A program made the translations under genes and the position numbers. Below, in pieces: positions 28,239-61,496 of a DNA stretch of 64,000 nucleotides (positions are counted from its first letter, which is position 1; each line of letters begins with the position of its first letter). The DNA is from Zingiber officinale (taxonomy: Eukaryota; Streptophyta; Magnoliopsida; Zingiberales; Zingiberaceae), in the NCBI RefSeq assembly GCF_018446385.1, contig NC_055989.1:133761004-133825003 (forward strand), given 5' to 3'. Under the pieces are notes generated by a model. It did not search any database. It was not told the DNA's origin and was given only the letters and a program-made list of their open reading frames with translations.

Positions 28239-28284
28239 ATATATGAAAAAAATGTTATTATAAAATTATACAAATTTTGATTCA

Positions 28285-29150
28285 GTGTCAGGTCACATCG
28301 CTTGCTCAACTTATTTTGATATTGTCATTGTTGTGTCACGTCATCTATGCAATTTTGTCCAAATGTGTTTATTGTTAGGTCATATCATCTGGATACAAAA
28401 AATATGTGTTCAGTGCCAGGTCACGTCGCCTGCCCAACTCGTCCCGATGTTGTCATTGCTGTGCCACGTCATCTATGCAATTTTGTCCAAATGTGTTCAT
28501 TGTTAGGTCACGTCATCTGGACACAAAAAATGTGTGTTCAGTATCAAGTCAAGTAGCTTGCCCAACTTATCCCAATGTTGTTATTGTTATGTCACGTCAT
28601 GTATGTAATTTTATTTAAATGTGTTCGTTGTTAGGTCACATCATTTGGATACAAAAAAATGTATGTACATTGCTAGGTCACATCGTCTTCTCAACTTGTC
28701 CCGATGTTATCATTGTTGTGTCACGTCACCTGTGTAATTTTGTCCAAATGTGTTCATTGTTAGGTTACATCATCTGGACACACAAAAATGTGTGTTCAAT
28801 GCCTAGTCACATTGCCTGCTCAACTTATCCCGATGTTGTCATTGTTGTGTCATATCATCTGAGTAATTTTGTTCAAAAGTGTTCATTGTTAGGTCACGTC
28901 ATCTGAACACACAAAAATGTGTGTTCAGTGCCTGTTCATGTCTTCTACTCAACTTGTCACGATGTTCTCATTGTTGAATTTTATCCAAATATGTTCATTG
29001 TTAGGTTACGTCATCTGGACACAAAAATGTGTGTTCAATGTCCGGTTATGTCACCTGCTCAACTTGTCCCGATGTTGTTCTTGTTGTGTCACATCATCTG
29101 TGTAATTTTGTCTAAATGTGTTGATTATTAGGTCACATCATATGTACAAA
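28285..29150. repeat. About 128-bp tandem repeat, seven units, rich in ACGT cores
   Basis: Units start near 28286, 28413, 28541, 28670, 28797, 28926 and 29036 with variants of gtgccaggtcacgtcgcctg. Each carries two related sub-motifs, tgtcacgtcatctgtg and aggtcacgtcatctgg, separated by ttttgtccaaatgtgttcattg. Open frames spanning it are artefacts of the periodicity. It lies between the ORF1 and transposase relics of the Harbinger element. Confidence 0.85.
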
Positions 29151-29399
29151 ATAAAAAAAGTATAGATATAACATACATTATAAATACACACCCTATAAGC
29201 AGTATGTATCTCATCCATTCAATTATCTCAGAAAATGGATAACAACAATGAGGGTTCATCAAATTTATCATCTTCAAACTTTGATGATGATAGCTGAAAT
29301 TTTTTGTACAAGGCAACAACTGATCGCTCAGGTGATTTCTACCAGCAATCAAATTATCTTGAATTATCTCAATTAAGAAAACAACCAAAGCATACATTG

Positions 29400-30422
29400 A
29401 GGCTGAATTCTTGGTCACAACATGATCAATCGTAATCGTGAAGCTGCTGATGGTAATCTATTCAATGATTATTTCGCCAAAAATGCATTGCATAATGATA
29501 CAATGTTTCGAAGAAGATTCTGAATGAGACAAAATTTATTTATGTATATCTGTGATGTTGGTAGTAATCATAACAACTATTTTATATAGAGAAGAGATGG
29601 GCTTGGAAGACTGGGTTTGTTTGGTTTGCGAAAAATAACAGCTGCATTTCGGATATTGGCGTACGGTGTACAAATAGATGCTACTGATGAGTACATTAAA
29701 ATAGGGGAATCAACTGTCATTGAAAGTGTGAAACGATTTTGTCATGCTATTGTTGAAGTTTTTAGATGGCGGCACCTACGATCTCCAAACGCTCACGATG
29801 TTGCTAGGCTACTTCAGATTGGTGAGCAAGGAGGTTTTCCAGTTATGTTAGGTAGCCTAGATTGCATGCACTGGATGTGGAAAATTTGTCCAATAGCATG
29901 GGTAGGACAATATTTTAGTCGTAATGGAAAGCCAATAATTATTCTAAAAGTTGTAGCTGATTATGATTTATGGATTTGGCATGCGTATTTTGGGTTGGCA
30001 GGATCGATTAATGATACTAATGTACTTGAGTCTTCTCATCTTTTTGCTAATCTTGCTGAAGGTATGACTATTCCTGCTCATTATGTTATTCAAGCAAAAG
30101 AGTATAATATGGGTTGCTATTTAACTGATGGTATATATCTAAAATGGTCAACACTTGTTCAAACAATTCATGCTCCATGAGGTCAAAAGAATAAATTATT
30201 TGCAATGAAGCAAGAAGCGTGTAGAAAGGATGTTGAGTGAGCATTTGGCATGCTCCAATCACGATTTGCAATTATTGCATGACCATCACATTTTTGACAG
30301 AAAATATTTTACATGACATACTAACATCATGTATTATTATGCATAATGTGATAATTGAAGATGGACATGATTTAAATACACCAATCGTTAAACACTTTGA
30401 GGTGACGACTCCAGATGTTTAG
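29400..30422 (+). pseudogene. PIF/Harbinger (HARBI1/ALP1-like) transposase relic
   Basis: The plus-strand translation follows plant Harbinger transposases closely: FGLRKITAAFRILAYGV, ATDEYIKIGESTVIESVKRF, SPNAHDVARLLQIGEQGGFP, then the first catalytic Asp in LGSLDCMHWMWK, the second in GSINDTNVLESS, and the Glu region KQEACRKDVE-AFGMLQSRFA. In-frame stops occur upstream (after FRRRF and after NYFI), after TIHAP, between DVE and AFG, and after FAIIA, so no full-length enzyme is possible. The tail SCIIMHNVIIEDGHDLN is also recognisable. Related domesticated proteins (ALP1, HARBI1) keep one open frame; this one does not. Confidence 0.9.
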
Positions 30423-30499
30423 CTCGTAGTAGATGATAATACTCGATTTGAAGATGATAATACTCGATTTGAAGAGGTGTCCTTCGAAATATATTAATT

Positions 30500-31072
30500 G
30501 AGCATTTATGGGAATAATATAGTAATTCTAAACGTTAAAATCATGTAATATTGCATTTTCAATTAAATGTTATAGTTTGTTTTAAATAAAAAATAGTAAA
30601 ATATTTTATCCTAATTGTGTATAATTTTATAATATTTTTAAAATATATTTATGCCGTAACAATTATGTAATAAAAATTTAAAATCAAAATCATAATTTTT
30701 TTATATATATTAGATAGATGACGAATTTTAAAAAATTTAACCTATCAAAATCAATGAAGTATTAATTTTAAATATAATAATTATCATATAAAAATATTAA
30801 TAAATTTAAATGTACTTTGATAATTAAATTATAATAAGAAAAATAAAATATTCTAAAGAATATTCTTTTTTGATGTAATATGGTATGGATGTGTTTGAAT
30901 GGAAATAGTATTTGGTGTTAAAATTATTTTAGTGCGAAAATAGTGAGTTGAATAAATTGAAATCAATTTTAGAAATTACATCTTAATATAAATAATTTTG
31001 AGTGAAAAGAAATATTTGCATTGAAAAAGTTTATACAATTGGAAGAATAGAATAGAATGTTTATTGTAATTG
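30500..31072. other. AT-rich spacer between Harbinger and CACTA elements
   Basis: Nothing recognisable apart from very AT-rich sequence. It may contain the decayed right end of the Harbinger element. Confidence 0.5.
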
Positions 31073-31084
31073 CACTACAACAAT

Positions 31085-31790
31085 TACTGTATTTTGGGAC
31101 GAATTTATAAAAAAGATTCGTTACAAAAGTTTTGGGGACGAAATTTGGGACGAAAAAATTTTCGTCCCAAACAGGTTGATGCTAACTTTTGGAACGAACT
31201 TATGTTTATTGCAAAATTGGCAACGAAATTGGGGACGAAAATAGGGATGGAAAAAAACTTTGTCCCCAAATTCATCGGCAAATTTGTAACAAAAAAAATT
31301 TTTTGTTGGAAAAGTTTTTACAATTTTACAACGAATATTTTTTTGTTGCAAACTTAACAACGAATTTGGGGTCGAAATTTTTTGTCGAATTTTTTTTTGT
31401 TGCCAATTTTGTCCCTAATTTTGCAACGAATAGTAATTTTGTTGCAAAATTGGCAACAAATTTGGCAACAAAATTTAGCAACGAATTATTTTTTCGTTGC
31501 CAAATTCGTCGCCAAATTTGCAACAAAACCCCCTACTTGTTGTAATATTTCATACAATTTTGGGATGAAAAATTTTTTGTTGGAAACTTTGCAACGAATT
31601 TGGGGACGAATTCAGTGACGAATGAATTTTTGTTGCTAAGTTTGTCGCTAATTTTGCAACGGATAAGATATTTGTTGCAAATTTGGCAACGATTTCTGGG
31701 ATGAAATTTGCAACAAAAAATATTTTGTTGCGAAGTGACGATAGAATGGCAACAAAAATTATTTGTTGCCAAATTCGTTCCTAAAAACAG
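31085..31790. repeat. CACTA left subterminal repeat zone
   Basis: Dozens of short repeats alternate in both orientations: gggacgaa, ttcgtccc, ttggcaacgaa, ttcgttgccaa. Overlapping open frames rich in 'NLATKF/FVAKFA' residues are by-products of these repeats, not genes. Confidence 0.8.
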
Positions 31791-32696
31791 AACTGCACAT
31801 TCCAGTATACCTGATTTCAACAATTCAATCCATACATACATATACAACAAATTCAAATAACACATTCAAATATATTCAACACATCCTCATTAACATTATC
31901 ACATCTTAATTAATTCACATACATCTATTCACAACAAATTCAAATGTTTCAAACCCAACAAGTCATACAATTAAGATCATAATTTGTTCTTTAAGCTACT
32001 CAAAAATGTTTCACAAGTTCAACACTCCAACAAGTTTCCATAAAAGTCCATCAATCCAAGAATTTAAACAAACTAAGATGCATCAAGTCGTCTTCTTATT
32101 CCACAAAAGTTTTCATCCCCATCAAGTCTTCTTTTCCTACATAAAAACAAACAAATAAACTAGATCATATGTAACCAGAAAGATAATTACTTAAAATGTA
32201 ACAGTCTCATAATTAGTTTGCTTGCATGGGAGTGTGGCATCACAAACTTGGTTTGAGGCGTGGTGCTTGAGGATGTTATATAACTTGTGTTGTTGGCATA
32301 AACATTAGTTAAACTCATTAGTTAACCCTTGACGATTAGGTAAATTCTTGTTATACATCCAACTTCTTTCATTCTGCATTTTACCTGTATGTAGTTATTT
32401 AGTTAAACATTATTAAAAATTACTATAAATAAATCTTATCATTGAAGACTAAGCAACAAAGACCATCAGATCAAAATGAAGGAATACAATTAATCAACCA
32501 ACTATAACTTAATTATTTAAAGTTAACTTATAAGAAAATGTATATTAATATACTTAGGAATACCGAAAAGAGGTGAATAAAAACGGTTGTCCTGATCGTA
32601 CACTGAGATCACGGCAAATTGATACCTGCAAAAATAACTCAATGAATTATAAGAGCACCTTTCAAATTTTAAATAAAAATTTATACAATATTAATT

Positions 32697-33330
32697 TTCA
32701 TGCTGTCGCGCTTAGCGGGGACAGCCGCGGCCATCCGGGGGCATTCACGGCCAGCATGGGCAGCCGCATTCCTCGCGTCCAACAGCGGACACAGTGGGCA
32801 GCCGCTGCCACCCTACGTGTGCAGCAGTGGCCACGCCCCGTCACGGCCAGATTTGGCCAGTGACTGCCAAGTTCTATCAAGCGGCCACCTCCGACCAAAC
32901 GCGGCGACTCGGCCACCCACAGCCAAAAGCGGCCAAGCCACAGCCAGGCCAGGATTCGTCGACTCCCGCCTGCCGGCAGCCACGGCCAGGCGCGGCGCGG
33001 CGACTCGCGCCTGGCGCCATCCACGGACAGGCGCGGCCAGGGGCGCCGACTCGGCCAGGAGAGGCGACTAGGCCAGGCCGCGCTCAGGCGCGACGACTCG
33101 GGCCTGTCCGCAGCCACCTGCGACCACTCGCGACTACCGGCGGCCACTCGCGCTTGCCGGCAGCCACCCGCGGCTGCCACCGTCCGCGCGGCCAGAGAGG
33201 GGAAAGGGGAGATGGGAGAAGCCGAGATAGAAGATGCATACCGCCACACGGTTCCACCGTCGGAGATCAACGCCGCCGCCGGAGTACAAAGGTGCCGCCG
33301 AAATGAGCGCAGATCTGGGAAGGTCGCACG
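32697..33330. other. GC-rich island inside the CACTA element
   Basis: A sharp-edged block, far more GC-rich than the AT-rich flanks, built of loose repeats of cggccaggcgcggcgactcg. Long open frames on both strands (for example minus 33372-32698, starting MASFRLCPLPFVSARATF) follow from the composition and match nothing I recognise. It could be a captured host fragment, a promoter/first exon of a lost transposon gene, or an expanded simple repeat. Confidence 0.55.
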
Positions 33331-33537
33331 GGCAGAGACGAAGGGTAAGGGACAGAGACGAAAAGAAGCCAAACATATCAGATCTGGGGTTTTTATGCAT
33401 CAAACAAGGTTTGTTGCCAATTTCGTCCCAGATTTGGGGACGAATCCAGGATTCGTCCCAGATTTAGGGACGAATCCAGGATTCATCCCAAAATTAGAAA
33501 AAAAAATATATATATATATATATAAGACTTACATATG

Positions 33538-36500
33538 GATCTAAAGGCATCGGAATTTAATGAAGCAAGTTTCTATGCGTTCGTATCATTGTCCTGATCG
33601 TTATTATGTATTTATAAATATTTTTGACCAAATATATTGATTGTTTGAATTTTTAATCCTAATTTGACCTAATTTGATTTAAAAATTTGAATCTCTCAAA
33701 ATATAAATTAAAAATCTTGTTTGATGGTATATTTACGATCAGGACAAGAATACGAATCCATAGAAATTTATTTCATGAAATTCCGATGTCTCTAGGTCAA
33801 TATATAAGACTTCCGTGTTTTATTTTTTATTTTTTAATTATTTCAATTATGGGGCGAATCCATGATTCGTCCCAGATTTGGGGACGAATTTGGGACGAAT
33901 CCAGGATTTGTCCCAAAATTTAAAAAAAAAAAAAGAAAAAAAATTTGTAAGGCTTACATATGGACCTAGAAACATCAGAATTTAATGAAACAAGTTTCTA
34001 TGCGTTCGTATCATTGTCCTGATCGTAATTAAATATTTATAAATATTTTTGACCAAATATATTGATTGTTTGAATTTTTTATCCTAATTTGATTTAAAAA
34101 TTTGAATCTATCAAATTATTAATTAAAAATTATGGATGATGGTATATTTACGATCAGGACAATAATACGAATCCATAGAAATTTATTTCATGAAATTCCG
34201 ATATCTCTAGGTCCAAATTTAAGATCTCAGTCACATAGCTACTAACATGCGTTGCATAATAACTTGTTAGTTAGTTGTAAACTATATATGTTTTAAGAAA
34301 ATCTACCTAGAGATATCAGAATATAATAAAATAAGTTTCTATGTGTTCGTATCATTTTCCTGATCGTAATTATATATTTATAAATATTTTTGACCAAATA
34401 TATTGATTGTTTGACTTTTTTATCCTAATTTGACCTAATTTGATTTAAAAATTTGAATCTCTAAAAATATTAATTAAAAACTATGGAAGATGACATATTT
34501 ACTATCTGGACAATAAAACGAATCCATAGAAATTTATTTCATGAAATTCCGATATCTCTAGGTCAATATATAAGCCTTTCGTGTTTTTTTTCCTTTTTTT
34601 TTAATTATTTCAATTCTGGGACGAATCCAGGATTCGTCCCAGATTTAGGGGCAAATCCTGGATTCGTCCCAAATTTTGGGACAAATCCTAAATTCATCCC
34701 AAATTTTGGGACGAATCCAGGATTCGTCCCAAAATTTAAAAAAAAAAAATTGTATGACTTACATATGGACCTAGAGACATCGGAATTTAATTAAACAAGT
34801 TTTTATGCGTTCGTATCATTGTTCTGATCGTTATTATATATTTATAAATATTTTTGACCAAATATATTGATTGTTTGAATTTTTTATCCTAATTTAACCT
34901 AATTTGGTTTAAAAATTTGAATCTCTAAAAATATTAATTAAAAGTTATGGATGATGTCATATTTATGATCAGGACAATAATACGAATCAACAGAAATTTA
35001 TTTCATGAAATTCCGATGTCTCTAGGTCAATATATAAGCCTTCCGTGTTTTTTTCCTTTTTTTTTTTAAATTATTTCAATTCTGGGACGAATCCATGATT
35101 CGTCCCAGATTTGGGGACGAATCCTGGATTCGTCCCAAATTTTAAAAAAAAAAAATTGTAAGGCTTACATATGGACCTAGAGACATCGGAATTTAATGAA
35201 ACAAGTTTCTATGCGTTCATATCATTGTCCAGATCGTAATTAAATATTTATAAATATTTTTAACCAAATATATTGATTGTTTGAATTTTTTTATCCTAAT
35301 TTGACCTGATTTGATTTAAAAATTTGAATATCTCAAAATATTAATTAAAAATTATGGATGATGGTATATTTACGATTAGGACAATAATTAGAATCCATGG
35401 AAATTTATTTCATAAAATTCCGATATCTCTAGGTCTAAATTTAAGATCTTGGTCACTTAGCTACTAACATGCTCGGTCACTTAGCTACTAACATGCGTTG
35501 AATAATAACTTGTTTATTAGTTGTAAACTATATATGTTTTAAGAAAATCTATCTAAAGGCATCGGAATTTAATGAAACAAGTTTCTATACGTTCGTATCA
35601 TTTTCCTTATCGTAATTATATATTTATAAATATTTTGACCAAATATATTGATTGTTTGACTTTTTTATCCTAATTTGATTTAAAAATTTGAATCTCTAAA
35701 AATATTAATTAAAAATTATGGATGATGGCATATTTTCGATCTGGACAATAATACGAATCCATAGAAATTTATTTCATGAAATTCCGATGTCTCTAGGTCA
35801 ATATATAAGCCTTCCGTGTTTTTTTTTTAAATTATTTAAATTTTGGGACGAATCCAAGATTCGTCCTAGATTCGGGGACAAATCTTGGATTCGTCCCAAA
35901 ATTTTTAAAAAAAGAAAAAAAAAATTGTATGGCTTACATATGGACCTAGAGACATCGGAATTTAATGAAACAAGATTCTATGCGTTCGTATTATTGTCCT
36001 GATCGTTATTATATATTTATAAATATTTTTGACCAAATATATTGATTGTTTGAATTTTTTTTCCTAATTTGATTTAAAATTTTGAACCTCTCAAAATATT
36101 AATTAAAAGTTATGGATGATGGCATATTTACGATTAGGACAATAATACAAATCCATAGAAATTTATTTCATGAAATTCCAATGTCTCTAGATCAATATAT
36201 AAGCCTTCCGTGTTTTTTTTCTTTTTTTTTTTAAATATTTTCAATTATGGGATGAATCCAGGATTTGTCCCAAATTTAAAAAAAAAAATTGCAAGGTTTA
36301 TATATGGACTTAGAGACATCGGAATTTAATGAAACAAGTTTCTATGCGTTCGTATCATTGTCCTGATCGTAATTATATATTTATAAATATTTTTGACAAA
36401 ATATATTGATTGTTTGATTTTTTTTATCCTAATTTGATTTAAAAATTTGAATCTCGCAAAATATTAATTAAAAATTATGGATGATGGTATATTTACAATC

Positions 36501-36948
36501 AGGACAATAATATGAATCCATAGAAATTTATTTCATGAAATTCCGATGTCTTTAGGTCAATATATAAGTCTTCCGTGTTTTTTTCCTTTTTTTTTTTTTT
36601 TTTAATATTTTCAATTATGGGACAAATCCAGGATTCGTCCCAAAATTTTAAAAAAAAAAGAAAAAAATTGTATGGCTTACATATGGACCTAGAGACATCG
36701 GAGTTTCATGAAACATGTTTCTATGCGTTTGTATCATTGTCCTGATTGTAATTATGTCCACATAATTTGTTTTAACCAAATATATTGATTGTTGGAATTT
36801 TTTTATCCTAATTTGACCAAATTTGATTTAAAAATTTGAATCTCTCAAAATATTAATTAAAAATTTTGTTTGATGGTATATTTACGATCAGGACAATAAT
36901 ACAAATCCATAGAAATTTATTTCATGAAATTCCGATGTCTCTAGGTCC
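33538..36948. repeat. Array of nine palindromic (foldback) units inside the CACTA element
   Basis: Nine tandem units, period about 390 bp, each with a left arm of about 66 bp (gacctagagacatcggaatt... to ...cattgtcctgatcgtaa), an AT-rich loop of about 125 bp, and a right arm that is the reverse complement (ttacgatcaggacaataata... to ...ccgatgtctctaggtc). Left arms start near 33538, 33961, 34303, 34765, 35174, 35548, 35945, 36306 and 36685. Most units are separated by a perfect 11-bp-arm palindrome GGGACGAATCC-A-GGATTCGTCCC or a variant. Plus-strand frames of 60-100 codons recurring here (RIHRNLFHEIPMSLGQYI) are just the right arm in translation. Confidence 0.9.
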
Positions 36949-37158
36949 ATATATAAGTCTTCCGTATTTTTTTTTTGTTTTAAATATTTTTGGACGAATC
37001 TTGGATTCGTCCCTAAATTTGGGACGAATCTTTGATTCGTTCCAGATTTGAGGACGAATTTAGCAACGAAATATTTGTCTGCTGCCATTTATCCTAATTT
37101 TGGGATGAATATTTTTTGTTCCAAAATTTTGTCTCTAAATCATTGTTCTTTTGTAGTG

Positions 37159-37892: not shown

Positions 37893-40136
37893 TTAGCGGT
37901 GATGATAAGGCGGCGGAGGTGATGTGTATGGGATTCCGACGACGGCCGGCAATGGATCTTGATGTGGTGACGGTTCAGGTAGTGTTGGCAATGCCGAGGG
38001 TGATGTTGCCGATGGCACGATGCATGGAGGGGGAGGGGGTTCGATGCATGGTGGGGGCGGGGGTTCGATGCAAGGAGGTGGCGGCGTAGGCGGAGGTTCA
38101 TTAATGCATGGAGGAGGAGGAGGCAGTGAGCCCGGTGGAGGCGGCGGCGAGTACAACGAAAGAGGGGGATTCAGTTGAGGCGGGTAGCAGGATGGAGGTG
38201 ATGGGGAGTATAATGAAGGTGGCGGTGGAGGCGAGTTCTGTGGAGGAGGTGGGAAGTACAATGGGGATGGCGGCGGATAGGATGTGAAAGATGGAGGCGG
38301 TGAATAGATTGGAGTAAGGGTAGGACTTGGTGGTGGAGGGAAATTGAGAGGAGGTGGCGGTTGAGAGCAGTAGACGAGTGGCGATGGAGCTCGTGGGCAG
38401 TAGACGGGCGGAGGTGGAGATGTTGAGCAATAGACTAGCGGCGGAGGTGGCGATGGAGTTCGGACGCAATATGGAGGCGGTGGTGGCGAAGGTAAAGGAG
38501 GCGATGGCGGCGGAGTAGGAGACGGCGGTGGAGGAGATGGAGGCGGCGGTGATGGCGGTGGGGGTGATGGAGGCGGCGGAGATGGCGGTGGAGGTGATGG
38601 AGGCGGCGGTGGGGGTGATGGTGGCGGCGGGGACGGCGGAGGAGGAGATGGCGGGGGCGGTGACGGTGGTGGAGGAGATGGCGGCGGAGGAGACGGCGGT
38701 GGAGGAGATGGCGGAGGAGGAGACGGCGGGGGCGGTGACGGCGGTGGAGGAGACGGCGGCGGAGGAGATGGAGGCGGAGGAGACGGCGGAGGAGGAGACA
38801 GCGGAGGAGGAGATGGAGGCGGCGGTGATGGCGGTGTGGGTGATGGAGGCGGCGGTGGAGGATTTGGTGGGGTCGGGGACGGAGGAGGAGGAGATGGCGG
38901 GGGCGGTGATGGAGGTGGAGGAGATGGCGGTGGCGGTGATGGAGGTGGCGGAGGGAGCCGAGGCACCAAAGGCTTACAACTGAAAAAAGAGCATTCAGCT
39001 GGAGGATGAGAGAAGAAAGACCTGCATTGTCTCTCCGATCTCTGCTTCGGCCGTGCTAAAAGGCAATTTCGCCGGTCATTGAAGGAGGACTGCCGGGCGA
39101 AGCACTCCTCCGGCGGTTCCCCGCTGAAGTAATTGTACGAATAGGTGAAGTTCTTCAGGCGTGGAAGACTGCAGATTGAGGGCGGAATAGAACCGGAGAA
39201 TAGATTGTGTGCGACGTCAAGCTGCTCGAGGCTGAACATTCCGCCGACGGACTCTGGGAGTGAGCCGACGAGGTTATTGTAGCTGAGGTCGAGCACTGTG
39301 AGGCTTTTAAGAAGGCCGATCTCGGAGGGGAAGCAGGAGTTTAGGCGGTTGCCCATGAGGATGATCTCGTTGAGTGTCCTAGACATGTTGCCGAGGCTTG
39401 CGGGCAGACATCCATGAAAGCGGTTGTTGGCGAGGACGATGACGGAAACAGGTGAGTTGCCGATGTTATCGGGGATCTCAAAGGCGAAGCGATTGTGGTT
39501 GATGAAAATGGCGTCCAGGTTACGTTCGAAGAGCTCGGTCGGCACGCCGCCCTCGAACTCGTTGAAACGAAGATCGAGGTAACGGAGAGAGGGGAGGCGG
39601 AGGACGACGTCAGGGAAACGGCCAGAGAGACGATTGTTGCTGACGTCGAGCTCATGGAGGAGAGTGAGACGGCGGAGGGAGCGGGGCAGGGTGCCGCAGA
39701 AGCGGTTGGAGTTGATGTGGATGAGCGCGAGGTCGTAGAGTAGACCGATCTGGGAGGGGATGAAGCCGGCGATGTCGCCGTGGTTGAGATCGACACCGGC
39801 GACGACAGTGCCGCTTGGATCGGAGGGTAGGGAGGAACAGAAGACGTAGGTGTAGTTGCAGACAGCGGGGCCTACCCAGTTGGCCGTCAGGTTCTTTGGG
39901 TCGGAGATGATGGCGAGCTTCCAAGCCTGGAGACCAATGTAGGCGTCTCGGAGGCGGGGGTTGGGGAAGGAAGCGAAATCGTCGACTCCAGTGGCCTGTA
40001 GGAGCTGTCGCAGCCTCTGCGCGTGGCCATTACGGCCGGAGCAGGAGTCGGCGAGGGGGAAGATGACGAGCAGCAGCAGAAACGGTAGAGAAAGAAGGAG
40101 CCAGGGATCTTCTCGGCCTGCGCGCTTCCACCTCAT
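37893..40136 (-). CDS. Leucine-rich repeat extensin (LRX) cell-wall protein
   Basis: A single uninterrupted ORF of 747 residues from a true ATG. Layout: a basic start followed by a hydrophobic signal peptide (about 12-31, LLLSLPFLLLLVIFPLADS); an N-terminal LRX domain (LQAWKLAIISDPKNLTANW, then VCNYTYVFC); about nine or ten LRRs (110-340; for example LTVLDLSYNNLVGSLPESVG); a cysteine-rich hinge (346-390); and an extensin region (391-747) of SPPPP repeats. LRX proteins bind RALF peptides through the LRR and anchor in the wall through the hydroxyproline-rich part, guiding wall integrity and tip or root-hair growth. Oddities: the Tyr/Cys-rich block (VYCSTSPPPPVYCP) and three tandem CIEPPPPP units add cysteines to the extensin part. 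The leader has no clear TATA. Vegetative versus pollen (PEX) type cannot be decided. Confidence 0.95.
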   Translation of the reverse strand: MRWKRAGREDPWLLLSLPFLLLLVIFPLADSCSGRNGHAQRLRQLLQATGVDDFASFPNPRLRDAYIGLQAWKLAIISDPKNLTANWVGPAVCNYTYVFCSSLPSDPSGTVVAGVDLNHGDIAGFIPSQIGLLYDLALIHINSNRFCGTLPRSLRRLTLLHELDVSNNRLSGRFPDVVLRLPSLRYLDLRFNEFEGGVPTELFERNLDAIFINHNRFAFEIPDNIGNSPVSVIVLANNRFHGCLPASLGNMSRTLNEIILMGNRLNSCFPSEIGLLKSLTVLDLSYNNLVGSLPESVGGMFSLEQLDVAHNLFSGSIPPSICSLPRLKNFTYSYNYFSGEPPEECFARQSSFNDRRNCLLARPKQRSERQCRSFFSHPPAECSFFSCKPLVPRLPPPPPSPPPPSPPPPSPPPPSPPPPSPTPPNPPPPPPSPTPPSPPPPSPPPLSPPPPSPPPPSPPPPSPPPPSPPPPSPPPPSPPPPSPPPPSPPPPSPPPPSPPPPSPPPPSPPPPPPSPPPPSPPPPSPPPPSPPPPSPPPPSPTPPPSPPLPSPPPPPYCVRTPSPPPPLVYCSTSPPPPVYCPRAPSPLVYCSQPPPPLNFPPPPSPTLTPIYSPPPSFTSYPPPSPLYFPPPPQNSPPPPPSLYSPSPPSCYPPQLNPPLSLYSPPPPPGSLPPPPPCINEPPPTPPPPCIEPPPPPCIEPPPPPCIVPSATSPSALPTLPEPSPHQDPLPAVVGIPYTSPPPPYHHR
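38515..38955 (-). repeat. Extensin-coding minisatellite (15-bp SPPPP units)
   Basis: The plus strand reads repeated ggcggtggaggagat-type units, the complement of codons for Ser-Pro-Pro-Pro-Pro. The tract is open on the opposite strand too (38528-38983, rich in Met/Glu/Ala), a codon-composition artefact. Such tracts expand and contract easily. Confidence 0.9.
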
Positions 40137-54737: not shown

Positions 54738-55869
54738 TGTTGGAAATGTGAATGGAATAAAAAGATGGGGATAAAAATACTCTATTGTGCATGAGTTTAG
54801 TTCCACATTAGAAGTCTCTTGGCTTTATTGTTGGTTTAAATTATGACACATGGAGACTCTCTCACGCGTGAGTGCGCAGGGGTGGGTGCAAATCCAGGGC
54901 TCGGATTGTACTGAACCAAGGTTGACTCGTGCGCGAGCACGACTTGCGCATGTCGAATGCTGGACCGGTTGAGGTAAAATTTACCCAAAAGAATGAACCA
55001 ACATATTGCCACTTGAATCTTGCTCAAGGGTGTAATGGAAGTATTAATATGAAATTAATGCTGATTCCGTACCGTCTCGACATTAATGACGACATTAAAC
55101 ACATTAATGGTGATTTCGTAACGTCTCAGTATTAATAGCGACATTAATCTCATTAATAATGATTCTGTAACGTCTCGACATTAATGAAGACATTAAACCC
55201 ATTAATGACGAAATTAAACTCAGTATTAAATGATCATAAATGATCATAATTTGATCATTTATTGCAGGTAAGATGAGAGCTCATATATAAGGAGACTGGA
55301 TCTTGAGCAAAGACAAGAGAAAGCGAAAGCAAAGTGAAAGCGAAGCAAAAGCAAGAGAATTCCTCCACCTTCGTTCCCCGATTCTTTTCTCTCAGTCGTG
55401 CATCCGCTCGGCTAAACTACTTGTGATAGCACTCAAGTGCATTCTCAGTTCGCCACGAACAACCAGTGCTTGGTTGCGTTCGTGATTTTGCCGCTATATC
55501 CGGGGAAACAGACGATCCGAGAAAACCTCGAAACACAGCCGGAGGTGGGACGAATCTGTTTCAAGGAAACTGCGTCGATCGCAGGCCTCGGTCCGCTGCT
55601 CTGTTTGTCCGCTCGGTTGGACTCTTCATCTGCTGGGTCGGCCACTCGCCCTTCTGATCTGCCCGACCAGTCTCCCGCTCTGCCTGTCTATCCTTCAGTC
55701 TGCTCGGACGCTTTGATTGCTCAGACTTTGAGGTCAGAAAACCAGCCCCTGCTGGCAGCCTGAGATTATCTGCTCAGGTCATCTTAACTGTGAGTTGAAT
55801 TTAATTCGAGTATTTAGATTCAGCTAATTTCCTGTAAATCTCCAGCTACATATTGTTTGGTTTCCAACA
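54738..55869 (+). repeat. 5' LTR of the Copia element
   Basis: 1132 bp, TGTTGGAAA...TTTCCAACA. It includes a TATA box (catatataagg, near 55281) followed by a GA-rich leader, and four loose 50-bp repeats of cgtctcgacattaatgac-type sequence at about 55070-55215. Confidence 0.92.
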
Positions 55870-55897
55870 ATCTTGAAACAGATTCAATTCTGTTGAG

Positions 55898-56800
55898 ATG
55901 GCCACGGAACGAAATGTTGAGGTGCAACAGACTCAACACGTGCAGGCCCCCTCCGCCCCGATTGGAACTGTGTCAATCAGTCATGGGGAAAAGCCAGAGA
56001 AGTTCAGTGGACTGAACTTCAAGAGGTGGCAGCAGAAGATGCTCTTCTACCTGACCACGCTCAATCTGGCTCGGTTCTTGACCGAGGACCGTCCCAAGTG
56101 CACTGAGGATGTTGATGCGCAAACTATCAGTACAGTGGAGGCATGGACTCATTCTGAGTTCCTTTGCCGAAACTATATCCTCAACTGTTTTGCCGACTCG
56201 TTGTACGCTGTGTATAGCATGAAGAGAATGACTAAGGGGTTGTGGGAGTCCCTAGACAAGAAATACAAGACGGAGGATACAGGGGCAAAGAAGTTCATCG
56301 TGGGCTGATTCATAGACTACAAGATGGTTGACTCCAAGACGGTGATCAGCCAAGTCCAGGAGCTTCAGGTGACCTTTCACGAGATCCACTCAGAAGGAAT
56401 AGTTCTGAGTGAAACCTTCCAGATGGCTGTTATCATTGAGAAATTGCCTCCCGGCTGGAAGGACTTCAAGAACTACCTGAAGCACAAGCGGAAGGAGATG
56501 AATGTAGAGGAACTCATTGTTCGACTTCGCATCGAAGAAGACAACAAGAGTTCAGAGAGGAAACTGTTCTCTCAGGCTACTGTGAAAGCCAAAGTGGTCG
56601 AGCTCGGTCAAAGATCGAAGCAGAAGAACCCCAAGTCTTCCAAGATGGGACCCAGAGAAGGCATCAGCAAGAAGAAGTTCTCTGGGAAGTGCTTCAACTG
56701 TAACAAAGTGGGTCACAAATCTTCGGAGTGCAGAAAGCCGAAGAAGAAGCAAGAGGCCAACCTGAACGAGGGACCAGAAATGGACGACCTCTGCGCTGTG
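55898..56800 (+). pseudogene. Copia gag region (fossil)
   Basis: Begins 29 bp after the LTR with MATERNVEVQQTQ. It has the UBN2-type gag core (EKFSGLNFKRWQQKMLFYL, LWESLDKKYKTED) and a CCHC zinc knuckle (CFNCNKVGHKSSEC, near 56692). Part of one gag-pol reading unit; broken. Confidence 0.88.
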
Positions 56801-56829
56801 GTCTCTGAGTTGAATCTGATCGGTTCAAA

Positions 56830-59790
56830 CCCGCGGCAATGGTGGATCGATATTGGAGCCACCAGACATGTGTGCTGCAACAAGGAACTGCTCCACAACT
56901 TCGAGGAAGTCACTGGAGATAAACTGTTCATGGGGAACTCAGCAACCTCGGACATCATGGGCCAAGGAAAGGTGGTGCTGAAGATGACCTCGGGCAAGGA
57001 CCTCACTCTGAACAATGTGCTGTATGTTCCGGAGATTCGGAAGAATCTAGTGTCCGGATCACTGTTAAGCAAGCATGACTTTCGCATTATTTTTGAGTCG
57101 GATAGAATTGTATTGTCCAAAAATGGAATGTTTGTAGGAAGAGGCTATGTATCTAATGGGTTGTTTGAGCTCAATGTAATGGCCATTAGGCCCAAGATAA
57201 ATAAAAATGAAAGCTCTTCCACTTATATGCTTGAGTCTTCGTGTTTGTGGCATGGTAGACTAGGACATGCTAACTACGATGTGTTGCGTAGATTAATAAA
57301 CATGCAAAGCATACCTACATTCCACCTTGACCCAAAACACAAGTGTGAGATTTGTGTTGAAGCGAAAATGACAAGGTCATCATTTCAACATATTGAAAGA
57401 AATAATGAACCACTTAACCTAATCCACACTGATGTGTGCGACCTAAAAGGTACACCAACACATGGTGATAATAAATACTTCATCACTTTTGTAGATGATA
57501 ACACAAAATATTGTTATGTGTATCTTCTCAAAAGTAAGGATGAAGCTATAGAGAAATTTGCTCTCTATAAGAATGAGGTTGAAAACCAACTTAATAGGAA
57601 AATTAAGGTGGTTCGAAGTGACCGAGGCAGTGAATATGTGTCACTATTCATTGAGTTGTGTGCTGAACATGGGATCAGACACGAAACAACAGCTCCATAT
57701 ACTCCTCAGCAAAACGGAGTTGCTGAGCGAAAGAATCGAACTCTTAAGGAGATGATGAATGCTCTTCTATTAAGCTCTGGATTGCTAGAGTCCATGTGGG
57801 AGGAAGCTGTGTTAACAGCTAATTACCTTTTAAATAAGGTGCCCCGGAAGAAAATAGATAAGAGCCTTATGAGTTATGGAATGGAAGACAACCGTCCTAC
57901 AAATATTTATGAATGTGGGAGTGTCTTGCCAAAGTGTTGGTACCTGATCCGAAAAAGATTAAGATAGGACTAAAGACTGTTGATTGCATATTTATTGGAT
58001 ATGCACATAACAGCAGTGCTTATCGATTTTGTGTGTATGAGTCGCACATACCGGAGATACACAAGAACTCGATAATCGAATCAAGAAATGCCTCTTTCTT
58101 CGAGCATATGTTTCCGTATAAGACCCGGGAGGATGCTAGCTCCTCAAAACGGGCAACCGAAACACAAGGTGAAGAAGAAGATGATGATGACGAGGAACCC
58201 GTGGAGGTTGAGCCTAGATGGAGCAAAAGAGCTCGGGTAGAAAAATCCTATGGATTGGATTTTATTACTTTTATGTTGGAGAGTGAGCCCCGAAGTTACT
58301 CAGAAGCTGTAGGCTCTTTTGATGGATCTCACTGGAAAGAGGCAATTGCATCTGAGATAGAATTTATCTTGCAAAATCACACTTGGGAACTTGTGGATCT
58401 TCCTCCGGGAAGTAAACCACTAGGTTGCAAGTGGATCTTCAAGAAGAAAATGAAATCAGATGACACGATTGATAAATACAAGGCCAGATTGATAATTATA
58501 GGATACCGACAACGAGAAGGCCTTGACTACTTCGATACATACTCTCCGGTATCGAGAATAACTTCCATTAGAGTATTGTTGGCTATTGCCGCTCTATGGA
58601 ATCTCGAAGTACATCAAATGGATGTAAAGACAGTCTTTCTAAATGGGGATTTAGAAGAGGAAATCTTCATGGACCAACCTGAGGGGTTTTCTGTGCCAGG
58701 ACAGAAAAACAAGGTCTGTAGATTGATGAAGTCATTATATGGCTTGAAACAAGCATCAAAGCAGTGACATGAGAAATTCGATAATGCCATGAAGGAATGT
58801 AGATTCAAGATCAATGAATGTGATAAATGTGTCTACATGAGAGTCACAGAGAGTAACTATGTTATCTTGTGCCTCTATGTAGATGACATACTTATCATTA
58901 GGAGCAATGATAAGATAATCAAATCCACTAAAGATATGATGAAGTTAAGATTTGACATGAAAGACATGGGCCTAGCTGATGTGATTCTAGGAATTAAAAT
59001 TCTTAGAACGATAGAAGGACTTGTTCTTAGTCAGTAGTCCCATTACGTGGACAAGATTTTTGAGAAATTCACCAAGGGTGATACTGCGTTGGTACGAACG
59101 CCGATAGATACGAGTCAACATCTATCAAAAAATCGAGGTGAAAGTATCTCGCAGACAGAGTACTCTCAAGTGATTGGAAGTCTGATGTACTTGATGAGTT
59201 GTACTCGACTAGACTTGGCCTACGCAGTAAGCAAACTGAGTAGATACACGAGTAATCTCAGTGTTGAGCACTGGAAAGGGATAACAAGAGTACTAAGGTA
59301 CTTGAGGTATACTCGTGAATATGGACTGCACTATACAAGATATCCTGCTGTGATCGAAGGATACAATGATGTAAGTTGGATATCTGATATAAAAGACTCT
59401 AAGTCTACAAGTGGATATATCTTCACTCTAGCAGGTGCAGCCATTTCCTGGAAATCTTCTAAGTAAACCGTAATAACCAGATCCACGATGAAATCTAAGT
59501 TTGTAGCTCTTGAGAAATGTTATGAAGAGGCTGAATGGTTACGACAATTCTTAGAAGATATTCCTCTATGGCCGAAACTTGTGCCGGCGATTTGCATACA
59601 TTGCGATAGTCAATCAGTAATCGGTCGGGGCACAGAGCCATCTGTATAATGGTAAGTCTAGACATATACGTCGTAAACATAATACCATTAGACAACTATT
59701 CTTAACTGGAATTATCACTGTTGACTATGTGAAGTCAAAGGATAACCTAGCGGATCCGCTAACCAAAGGGTTAAATTGAGAGTTAGTTGC
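56830..59790 (+). pseudogene. Copia pol region: protease, integrase, reverse transcriptase, RNase H (fossil)
   Basis: In order: the aspartic-protease region, the GAG-pre-integrase zinc region (LWHGRLGHANYDVL, HKCEICVEAKM), the integrase core (LIHTDVCDLKG, APYTPQQNGVAERKNRT), RVT_2 reverse transcriptase (WKEAIASEIEFI, GCKWIFKKKMKS, QMDVKTVFLNGDLEE, LCLYVDDILII) and Ty1-type RNase H ([39 protein letters not shown], ending near DNLADPLTKG-type residues). Typical Copia order. Broken. Confidence 0.88.
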
Positions 59791-60345
59791 AAGATCATCA
59801 AGAGGAATGGGCTTGATGCCGTTGTCAGCGATCAGTGCAGAGGACACCCAACCTATGCTGACTGGAGATCCCAAGAACTAGGTTCAAAGGGACAACTAAT
59901 CTGCACTGACTAGACACACTGTGGGGGGGGGGGGGGGGGAGCCCAATGAAACAGTGACTAGACCAGGATAAGCCGATGAGCTTTTAATGATCAAAACGAG
60001 TAGATGGTAACTCTTGAGGGATCACCTATGTGAGAAAGAAGTGGGGTCGCTTTGAAGAGAATTGGAGGCACAATTCTTAGAGCTTCTCACAGAACTAGAC
60101 ATGTTCATGGCTAAGAAGGAACACACTCATGAGAACTGAGTTGTATCAGGGAGAGTCTTGAGTGAGATTTATTACTGCTTACACAGACGACAGTATAATT
60201 CAAGGACATCGTGTCTACTATCAGCCAGTAAGCAACCAGATCTTCACATGAGAATGTTCAAAGGGTAAAACCTACCTATCCTATACTTGACTCAATTGTT
60301 GAATGCTATCACATACCCTGTTTTCCATTCATGGGGGGGGGGGGT

Positions 60346-61496
60346 TGTTGGAAATGTGAATGGAATAAAGAGGTGGAGACGAAGAGACTCTATTGTGCAT
60401 GAGTTTAGTCCCACATTAGAAGTCTCTTAGCTTTATTGTTGGTTTAAATTATGACATATGCATTGTAAACATATGCATGGGGAGAGACTCTTTCACGCGT
60501 GAGTGCGCAGGGGTGGGTGCAAATCCAGGGTCCGGATTGTACTGAATCAAGGTTGACTCGTGCGCGAGCACGACTTGCACATGTCGAATGCCGAACCGGT
60601 TGAGGTAAAATTTACCCAAAAGAATGAACCAACATATTGCCACTTGAATCTTGCTCAAGGGTGTAATGGAAGCATTAATGTGAAATTAATGTTGATTCCA
60701 TAACGTCTCGACATTAATGGTGACATTAAACTCATTAATGGTGATTTCGTAACGTCTCAGTATTAATATCGACATTAATCTCATTAATAATGATTCTGTA
60801 ACGTCTCGACATTAATGAAGATATTAAACCCATTAATGACGAAATTAAACTCAGCATTAAATTATCATAATTTGATCATTTATTGCAGACAAGATGAGAA
60901 CTCCTATATAAGGAGACTGGATCTTGAGCAAAGAAAAGAGAAAGCGAAAGCGAAAGCAAAGCGAAAGTGAAGCATAAGCAAGAGAATTCCTCCACCTTCA
61001 TTCCCCGATTCTTTTCTCTCAGTCGTGCATCCACTCGGCTAAACTACTTGTGATAACACTCAGGTGCATTCTCAGTTCGCCACGAACAACCAGTGCTTGG
61101 TTGCGTTCGTAGTTTTGCCGTTGTATCCTGGGAGACAGACGATCCGAGAAAACCTCGAAGCACAGCCGGAGGTGGGACGAATCTGTTTCAAGGAAACTGT
61201 GTCGATCGCAGGCCTCGGTCTGCTGCTCTGTTTGTCCGCTCAGTTGGACTCTTCATCTGCTGGGTCGACCACTCGCCCTTTTGATCTGCCCGACCGGTCT
61301 CCCACTCTGCCTGTCTATCATTCAGTCTGCTCGGACGCTTTGATTGCTCAAATTCTGAGGTCAGAAAATCAACCTCTGCTGACAGTCTGAGATTATCTGC
61401 TCAGATCATCTTAACTATAAATTGAATTTAATTCAAATATTTAGATTCAACTAATTTCCTGTAAACCTCCTGCTACACATGATTCGATTTCCAACA
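60346..61496 (+). repeat. 3' LTR of the Copia element
   Basis: 1151 bp, collinear with the 5' LTR (shared tcacgcgtgagtgcgcaggg, cctatataaggagactgg, cgaatctgtttcaaggaaac). Preceded by a polypurine tract that includes a run of 12 G (60333-60344). Confidence 0.92.

Follow-up and report, generated by a model that had tools for sequence, protein, structure and literature searches.

The maize element En/Spm has a GC-rich first exon and a layout of 12-bp direct and inverted motifs. Its terminal motifs are bound by TNPA, and its deletion derivatives keep both ends, as stated in the available part of a report (PMC2613891) that also describes Tgmt* of soybean, a 20.5-kb element with CACTA ends, a 3-bp duplication and asymmetric subterminal repeats, in which one border has 12 potential stem-loops and the opposite one 2. 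In the mostly non-autonomous Tpn1 family of morning glory, the subterminal tandem repeats are 122 and 104 bp long (PMC5105172, available sections), and Jozin, a 16.5-kb CACTA element of quinoa found in several copies, bears near one end a 5.55-kb satellite of 32.5 × 171 bp (PMC8978399, available sections).

Here we describe an array in cultivated ginger in which the repeat-rich ends already known in CACTA transposons are strikingly enlarged, with precedents in soybean, morning glory and quinoa. The ginger family resembles Tgmt* in its CACTA ends, its 3-bp duplications, its asymmetric, stem-loop-forming subterminal repeats and the total size of one copy (on contig C12). However, the stems of Tgmt* are at most 17 bp long and lie within 732 bp of one end (PMC2613891, available part), whereas the ginger array is built from ~390-bp units with 72-bp arms and extends over up to 10.3 kb. 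Subterminal tandem repeats and a prevalence of non-autonomous copies liken Tpn1 to the ginger case, but alternating inverted half-units, which the ginger array has, are not mentioned in the sections of PMC5105172 available. The Jozin satellite is described as captured and is placed downstream of the coding sequence, close to the 3' end; the ginger array, in contrast, precedes the transposase gene, is palindromic and includes the terminal motif of the family itself. En/Spm, for its part, shares with ginger the retention of both ends in deletion derivatives but, unlike ginger, has short motifs without a satellite. Among the published CACTA elements listed in literature searches are some with satellites and others whose subterminal repeats form stem-loops or are tandem; long palindromic satellite units of the ginger type were not found in those listings or in the available parts of that literature. 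The word CACTA is absent from the main text of two ginger genome papers.

The ginger element and its empty allelic site

The window analyzed comprises 64,000 nucleotides of contig NC_055989.1 in a haplotype-resolved ginger assembly. Nine left/right arm pairs at 33537-36948, matching within a base the nine units that the initial annotation had placed at 33538..36948, lie within a 6,086-bp CACTA element (31073-37158). Both element termini read CACTACAA... and form CACTA terminal inverted repeats. The features are:

31073..37158, no strand: CACTA element of 6,086 bp with termini CACTACAACAATT... and ...TTTTGTAGTG
31073..37158, no strand: element flanks TTG / TTT, an imperfect target duplication; empty allelic site on C3
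31073..31832, plus strand: distal terminus (opposite the array), carrying 6 GGGACGAA/TTCGTCCC motifs where the Markov mean is 0.03, plus GCAACGAA-type repeats
32302..32310, no strand: internal-deletion junction, approximate, with short filler at the join, from blast blocks against the C12 element
32311..32379, minus strand: what is left of the transposase gene start, 23 codons beginning at an ATG, MQNERSWMYNKNLPNRQGLTNEF (C12 ORF: MQNQRSWMYNKNLPNRQGLTNEFI)
32673..33420, minus strand: GC-rich block separating the transposase start from the array, with GC reaching 0.74
33437..33489, no strand: two palindromes bordering the array on its inner side
33537..33798, plus strand: unit 1 (left arm, loop and right arm)
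33962..34214, plus strand: unit 2
34303..34565, plus strand: unit 3, preceded by a spacer without palindrome
34767..35029, plus strand: unit 4
35173..35435, plus strand: unit 5
35549..35800, plus strand: unit 6, preceded by a spacer without palindrome
35942..36194, plus strand: unit 7
36306..36558, plus strand: unit 8
36685..36948, plus strand: unit 9, fold -114.9 kcal/mol, z -16.8
36991..37158, plus strand: array-side end, with two further palindromes that have 2 and 3 mismatches, as well as motif repeats and the terminal TTGTAGTG

Compared with the C12 element, the window copy lacks ~6.3 kb, including most of the transposase gene. It is a non-autonomous internal-deletion derivative in which both ends and the nine-unit array are kept. 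The GC-rich block (32673-33420) is a probable promoter/leader region, its strand and role being taken from the transposase; a 224-aa ORF within it had no Pfam match.

Four flanking blocks are collinear between C3 and C4 with 84-96% identity, and C3 is apparently homologous to C4, a contig pairing that we infer. On C3, no element is found at the homologous place and the flanks meet at a single TTG. The window element is polymorphic between haplotypes, with an empty allelic site. The imperfect TTG/TTT duplication suggests a small later change or an excision-type edit.

The insertion site lies within another dispersed repeat (29400-31072) with mostly 81-90% identity among 43 matches, drawn from 40 scored of 706 first-look candidates. 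A 129/258-bp tandem repeat is located upstream of the element (28281-29156) and a G-rich 15/30-bp minisatellite ~1.3 kb past it (38497-38953). Within 54853-61241, direct repeats of 94-95% identity are spaced by 5.63 kb (54853-55152/60484-60783 and 55315-55614/60942-61241), with one 49-bp tandem repeat common to both regions; they are probably the two LTRs of an LTR retrotransposon.

Unit symmetry and arm pairing

The spacing of the units, initially given as ~390 bp, is irregular in the window (343-462 bp), and the core arms are ~72 nt long instead of ~66 bp. The arms are nevertheless inverted as described: the left arm and the reverse complement of the right arm are on average 79.6% identical in the window's nine units, and arm complementarity is 80.7% over 158 units, six of which, from the C1 copy, are in opposite orientation to the rest. 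Whole units are 73.5% identical to their own reverse complements (158 units), compared with 54.6% for letter-shuffled units (60 units). For the loop alone the values are 63.7% vs 56.6% after shuffling, showing that the symmetry extends weakly into the loop. The arm has at its centre (e.g. window 36331-36342) the short sequence GAAAC-AA-GTTTC, a perfect inverted repeat; the right arm of the main group has GAAAT-AA-ATTTC at the same place, with the inverted repeat retained.

The palindrome GGGACGAATCC-N-GGATTCGTCCC, 23 bp in length and composed of two inverted GGGACGAAT half-sites, occurs 15 times in the window with at most 3 mismatches (0 expected). The initial annotation had described perfect palindromes between units. 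Indeed, six of the eight inter-unit spacers contain the palindrome, but only 4 of the 15 are perfect, and the spacers at ~34215-34302 and ~35436-35548 are of a different kind and hold none of them.

Folded singly, the nine window units reach -65.1 to -114.9 kcal/mol, the lowest value being that of unit 9 (left plus right arm; z -16.8 vs shuffles). An alternative frame, in which a right arm pairs with the next left arm and a palindrome forms the tip, gave -117.9 kcal/mol (z -16.1). The unit frame is arbitrary, each half-unit pairing equally well with its neighbor on the other side. As both frames fold equally well, the array consists of alternating inverted half-units with two symmetry axes, and the nine hairpins of the initial annotation represent one of two readings of equal standing.

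The great stability of the folds in both frames is what a small-RNA generator would offer: read-through hairpins would be diced to 21-24-nt RNAs that silence the family or aid its control. The 104 novel miRNAs reported for ginger, mostly 24 nt long and with precursors of 52-1,439 nt (PMC8756691, available part), would accord with long inverted repeats generally, with no tie to the present array. However, left and right arms match no better within a unit (0.807) than between units of the same array (0.805) or between elements (0.801; 158 units, six misoriented), and the per-array figures of the 24 loci agree, so that within-unit coevolution of the arms was not found in this set. Outside the main group, own-array arm fit was better by 2-9 points both ways in five of nine arrays (C1, L056, L057, L059 and L063) and no better in the other four (L058, L060, L061 and L062).

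Covariation gave a divided picture. Without the most distant copy it equals that in shuffles (0.065 vs 0.064, reached by 204 of 500; 20 units, with window unit 2 entered twice, once as L013, and the C1 copy left out), arguing against the small-RNA generator. With one C1 unit added (21 units, no duplicate), covariation rises above shuffles, in its favor (0.079 vs 0.071, reached by 15/500), as do pairs changed on both sides (10 vs 6.4, 14/500) and cells changed on both sides (15 vs 8.7, 7/500). In these pair counts the structure was taken from one alignment row, which favors it, and related sequences can exceed shuffles without any structure. Within the main group, pair counting gave no sign that the arms are kept together. 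Across the deepest split, selection for pairing, arm-to-arm conversion or selection on a shared sequence may have kept the arms alike, and conversion would mimic the covariation signal. A lineage-level odds ratio of 8.2 for co-change was also obtained; as pairing is present in both lineages for 45 of the 98 double changes, and the variable sites coincide, we draw nothing from it.

Rfam yielded no family at its gathering score, again to the disadvantage of a small-RNA gene; among 57 matches below that score the best, MIR5512 (46.8 of 139 bits), lies at the other end of the element.

Arrays in related elements

We read 218 units at 24 loci, with 2-27 units per array in the sequence read. A unit search gave at least 186 matches on both strands (40 scored of 2,818 first-look candidates); an arm 33-mer occurs at 853 places in the genome with at most one mismatch, and the exact palindrome at 2,915. 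An assembly artefact, absent from other copies of the family, had been raised as a concern for the array; arrays in many copies, at the 24 loci read, rule it out. Four copies are complete:

C12:78445448-78465107: 19,660 bp, 27 contiguous units making up 52% of the length, perfect duplication CGA
C15:25289991-25298873: 8,883 bp, 13 units, duplication CTA
C1:2572587-2578773: 6,187 bp, 6 units, duplication TAA
window: 9 units, TTG/TTT

In all four, the array adjoins the same terminus, beside the GC-rich block. The 5' ends assigned to two other copies (C15a and C17a) were chance CACTAC strings and were left out. The CACTA context proposed initially is thus well founded in the terminal repeats, the motif clusters at both ends (see below), the 3-bp target duplications of three complete relatives (CTA, TAA and CGA) and the empty allelic site.

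The same arrangement was recovered starting from the GC block. Of 44 matches listed (40 scored of 76 first-look candidates), four second fragments were dropped. For 35 of the 40 remaining, an array-side terminus of the family was located on the expected side, no more than 40 kb away, including two matches on C3 that have a single terminus in common. No match showed the wrong arrangement, and the other five lacked a terminus at this distance; the terminus set comprised 68 places with at most one mismatch, among 100 listed of 298 found. The distance from GC block to terminus is 3.0-25.8 kb, with a median of 7.1 kb. A 5-kb stretch sampled from the 25.8-kb span, on C10, contains no unit. This observation indicates that the longest spans overstate array length, nested insertions being the probable cause, and that a span above ~11 kb should not be taken for an array.

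As every unit is an inverted repeat, the array could also derive from a separate foldback or MITE that inserted into the CACTA element and was amplified afterwards, as the initial annotation had considered. From 100 arm places listed of the 853, we picked eight that seemed isolated or had odd pairing. A CACTA-type terminus was present within the 6.5 kb fetched in three of them and absent from that distance in the other five, so that some arrays may lie outside CACTA elements. All eight, however, proved to lie in arrays of 4-10 units, with no single free-standing foldback among them. In addition, the symmetry continues through the spacer palindromes without an evident insertion boundary, and unit identity between arrays falls to 0.69-0.76, which indicates that the arrangement is old. 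We therefore consider such an origin very improbable.

The units have the traits of satellite monomers. They are more alike within an array (0.91-0.93) than between elements (0.897), and on C12 units at lag 2 (0.966) resemble each other more than those at lag 1 (0.931), forming a two-unit higher-order repeat that was not seen in the other two arrays tested (C15 and C10). The varying unit number, the similarity within copies and the two-unit repeat together form the pattern that replication slippage or unequal exchange gives. Arms (0.88 and 0.90) and loop (0.89) are about equally alike inside the main group, while between the main group and nine other units the arms are at 0.86 and 0.81 and the loop at 0.72, and between the main group and a C1 unit at 0.73 and 0.79 vs 0.59 (21 unit rows). 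When subfamilies are compared, the loop is less conserved than the arms. How the C1 units are oriented with respect to the main group is uncertain, as they are reversed when oriented by the element, whereas the other orientation is slightly better by sequence (0.738 vs 0.717).

Two irregularities were observed among the divergent arrays. In an array on C1 (L063 1174-4157), ~2.9 kb of other sequence separates the arms of one unit. In the subfamily of L058, L060 and L061, the left arm of the first unit is nearer to the window's (score 134) than those of later units (84-116).

These traits raise the possibility that the array is a passive satellite that grew by slippage or unequal exchange and rides along with the element, function residing only in the terminal copies of the motif. 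The loose copy number (2-27 units in the sequence read), the higher-order repeat of C12 and the published CACTA-linked satellite arrays (PMC8978399 and PMC7320549, available sections) all fit this explanation, and the unit-free 5 kb in one long span suggests that insertions are tolerated. Against it, the loop drifts across subfamilies while the arms are kept; the far-flung arrays were found via their arm sequence, so that their arms are no independent evidence. On balance, we regard passive growth as unlikely, though not negligibly so.

Promoter-side position and putative binding sites

The C12 copy contains a 783-aa ORF (stop to stop) with Transposase_21 (PF02992, 272.7 bits), part of DUF4218 and Transpos_assoc. 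The ORF starts just within the GC block and is directed away from the array. A copy at 20.49 Mb on C15 has the same arrangement, with its transposase in several open-frame pieces. As the transposase reads away from the array in both copies that have one, the array is on the promoter side, upstream of the gene. Its location upstream of, and not inside, the transposase gene argues further against a small-RNA generator. The idea that the unit derives from, or is aimed at, the transposase gene was rejected, as matches between the unit and the rest of the C12 element are short and weak among the matches listed; this, too, disfavors small-RNA production from the array, which we consider distinctly unlikely.

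The motif GGGACGAA, one half of the palindrome, is clustered at both element ends and near-absent between them. Counts of GGGACGAA/TTCGTCCC at the far end, in the interior and on the array side are:

window: 6, 0 and 20
C12: 8, 0 and 68
C1a: 8, 0 and 39
C15b: 6, 1 and 22

The corresponding Markov means are below 0.3 in the four complete copies, all of which have direct and inverted motif clusters at both ends. End motifs of this kind bind TNPA in En/Spm (PMC2613891, available part). By analogy, the array would multiply such sites on the promoter side.

Based on these results, we suggest, with somewhat more confidence than doubt, that the array is a promoter-side subterminal region that has expanded into a satellite of probable binding sites for a transposon protein. 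It most likely holds putative binding sites rather than a hairpin RNA gene. Amplified transposase-binding modules, already envisaged in the initial annotation, are by inference the best supported of the earlier readings. Each repeat is a pair of inverted half-units of ~190 bp each, with alternating axes, one through the 23-bp palindrome and one through the AT-rich centre. The element's own DNA-binding protein, in the role that TNPA has in En/Spm, would bind the palindromes and the conserved arms, and expansion would provide more docking sites for transposition and/or for control of the adjoining promoter.

Several observations weigh against this proposal. The sole sign of a TNPA-type gene is a 96-aa ORF in the C12 copy, on the same strand as the transposase and beyond it, that matches Transposase_24 (Ptta/En/Spm), the family of En/Spm-type second proteins, with 20.7 bits (E 0.0005), short of the 28.7 cut-off; the other two of three short C12 ORFs had no relevant match. 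Docking at the termini alone fails to explain the arms, as these are present only at the array end. The modest arm covariation with the most distant copy is not predicted if the array consists purely of binding sites, and tandem growth alone, without a selected function, could yield such an array.

A bolder variant, which we put forward as a speculation with little probability, would make the array a dosage device. Selection would keep the two-axis satellite long, so that it collects the transposon's DNA-binding protein by the transposase promoter and ties transposase supply to array length, while the hairpin symmetry would also feed small-RNA silencing of that promoter. If this were true, deletion derivatives such as the window copy would act as sponges for the DNA-binding protein. 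CACTA subterminal repeats vary widely, and some of them grow into long arrays. With complete copies of 6, 9, 13 and 27 units in one genome, at least one of them polymorphic between the assembled haplotypes, the ginger family would allow array length to be compared with transposition, methylation and small RNAs within one plant.
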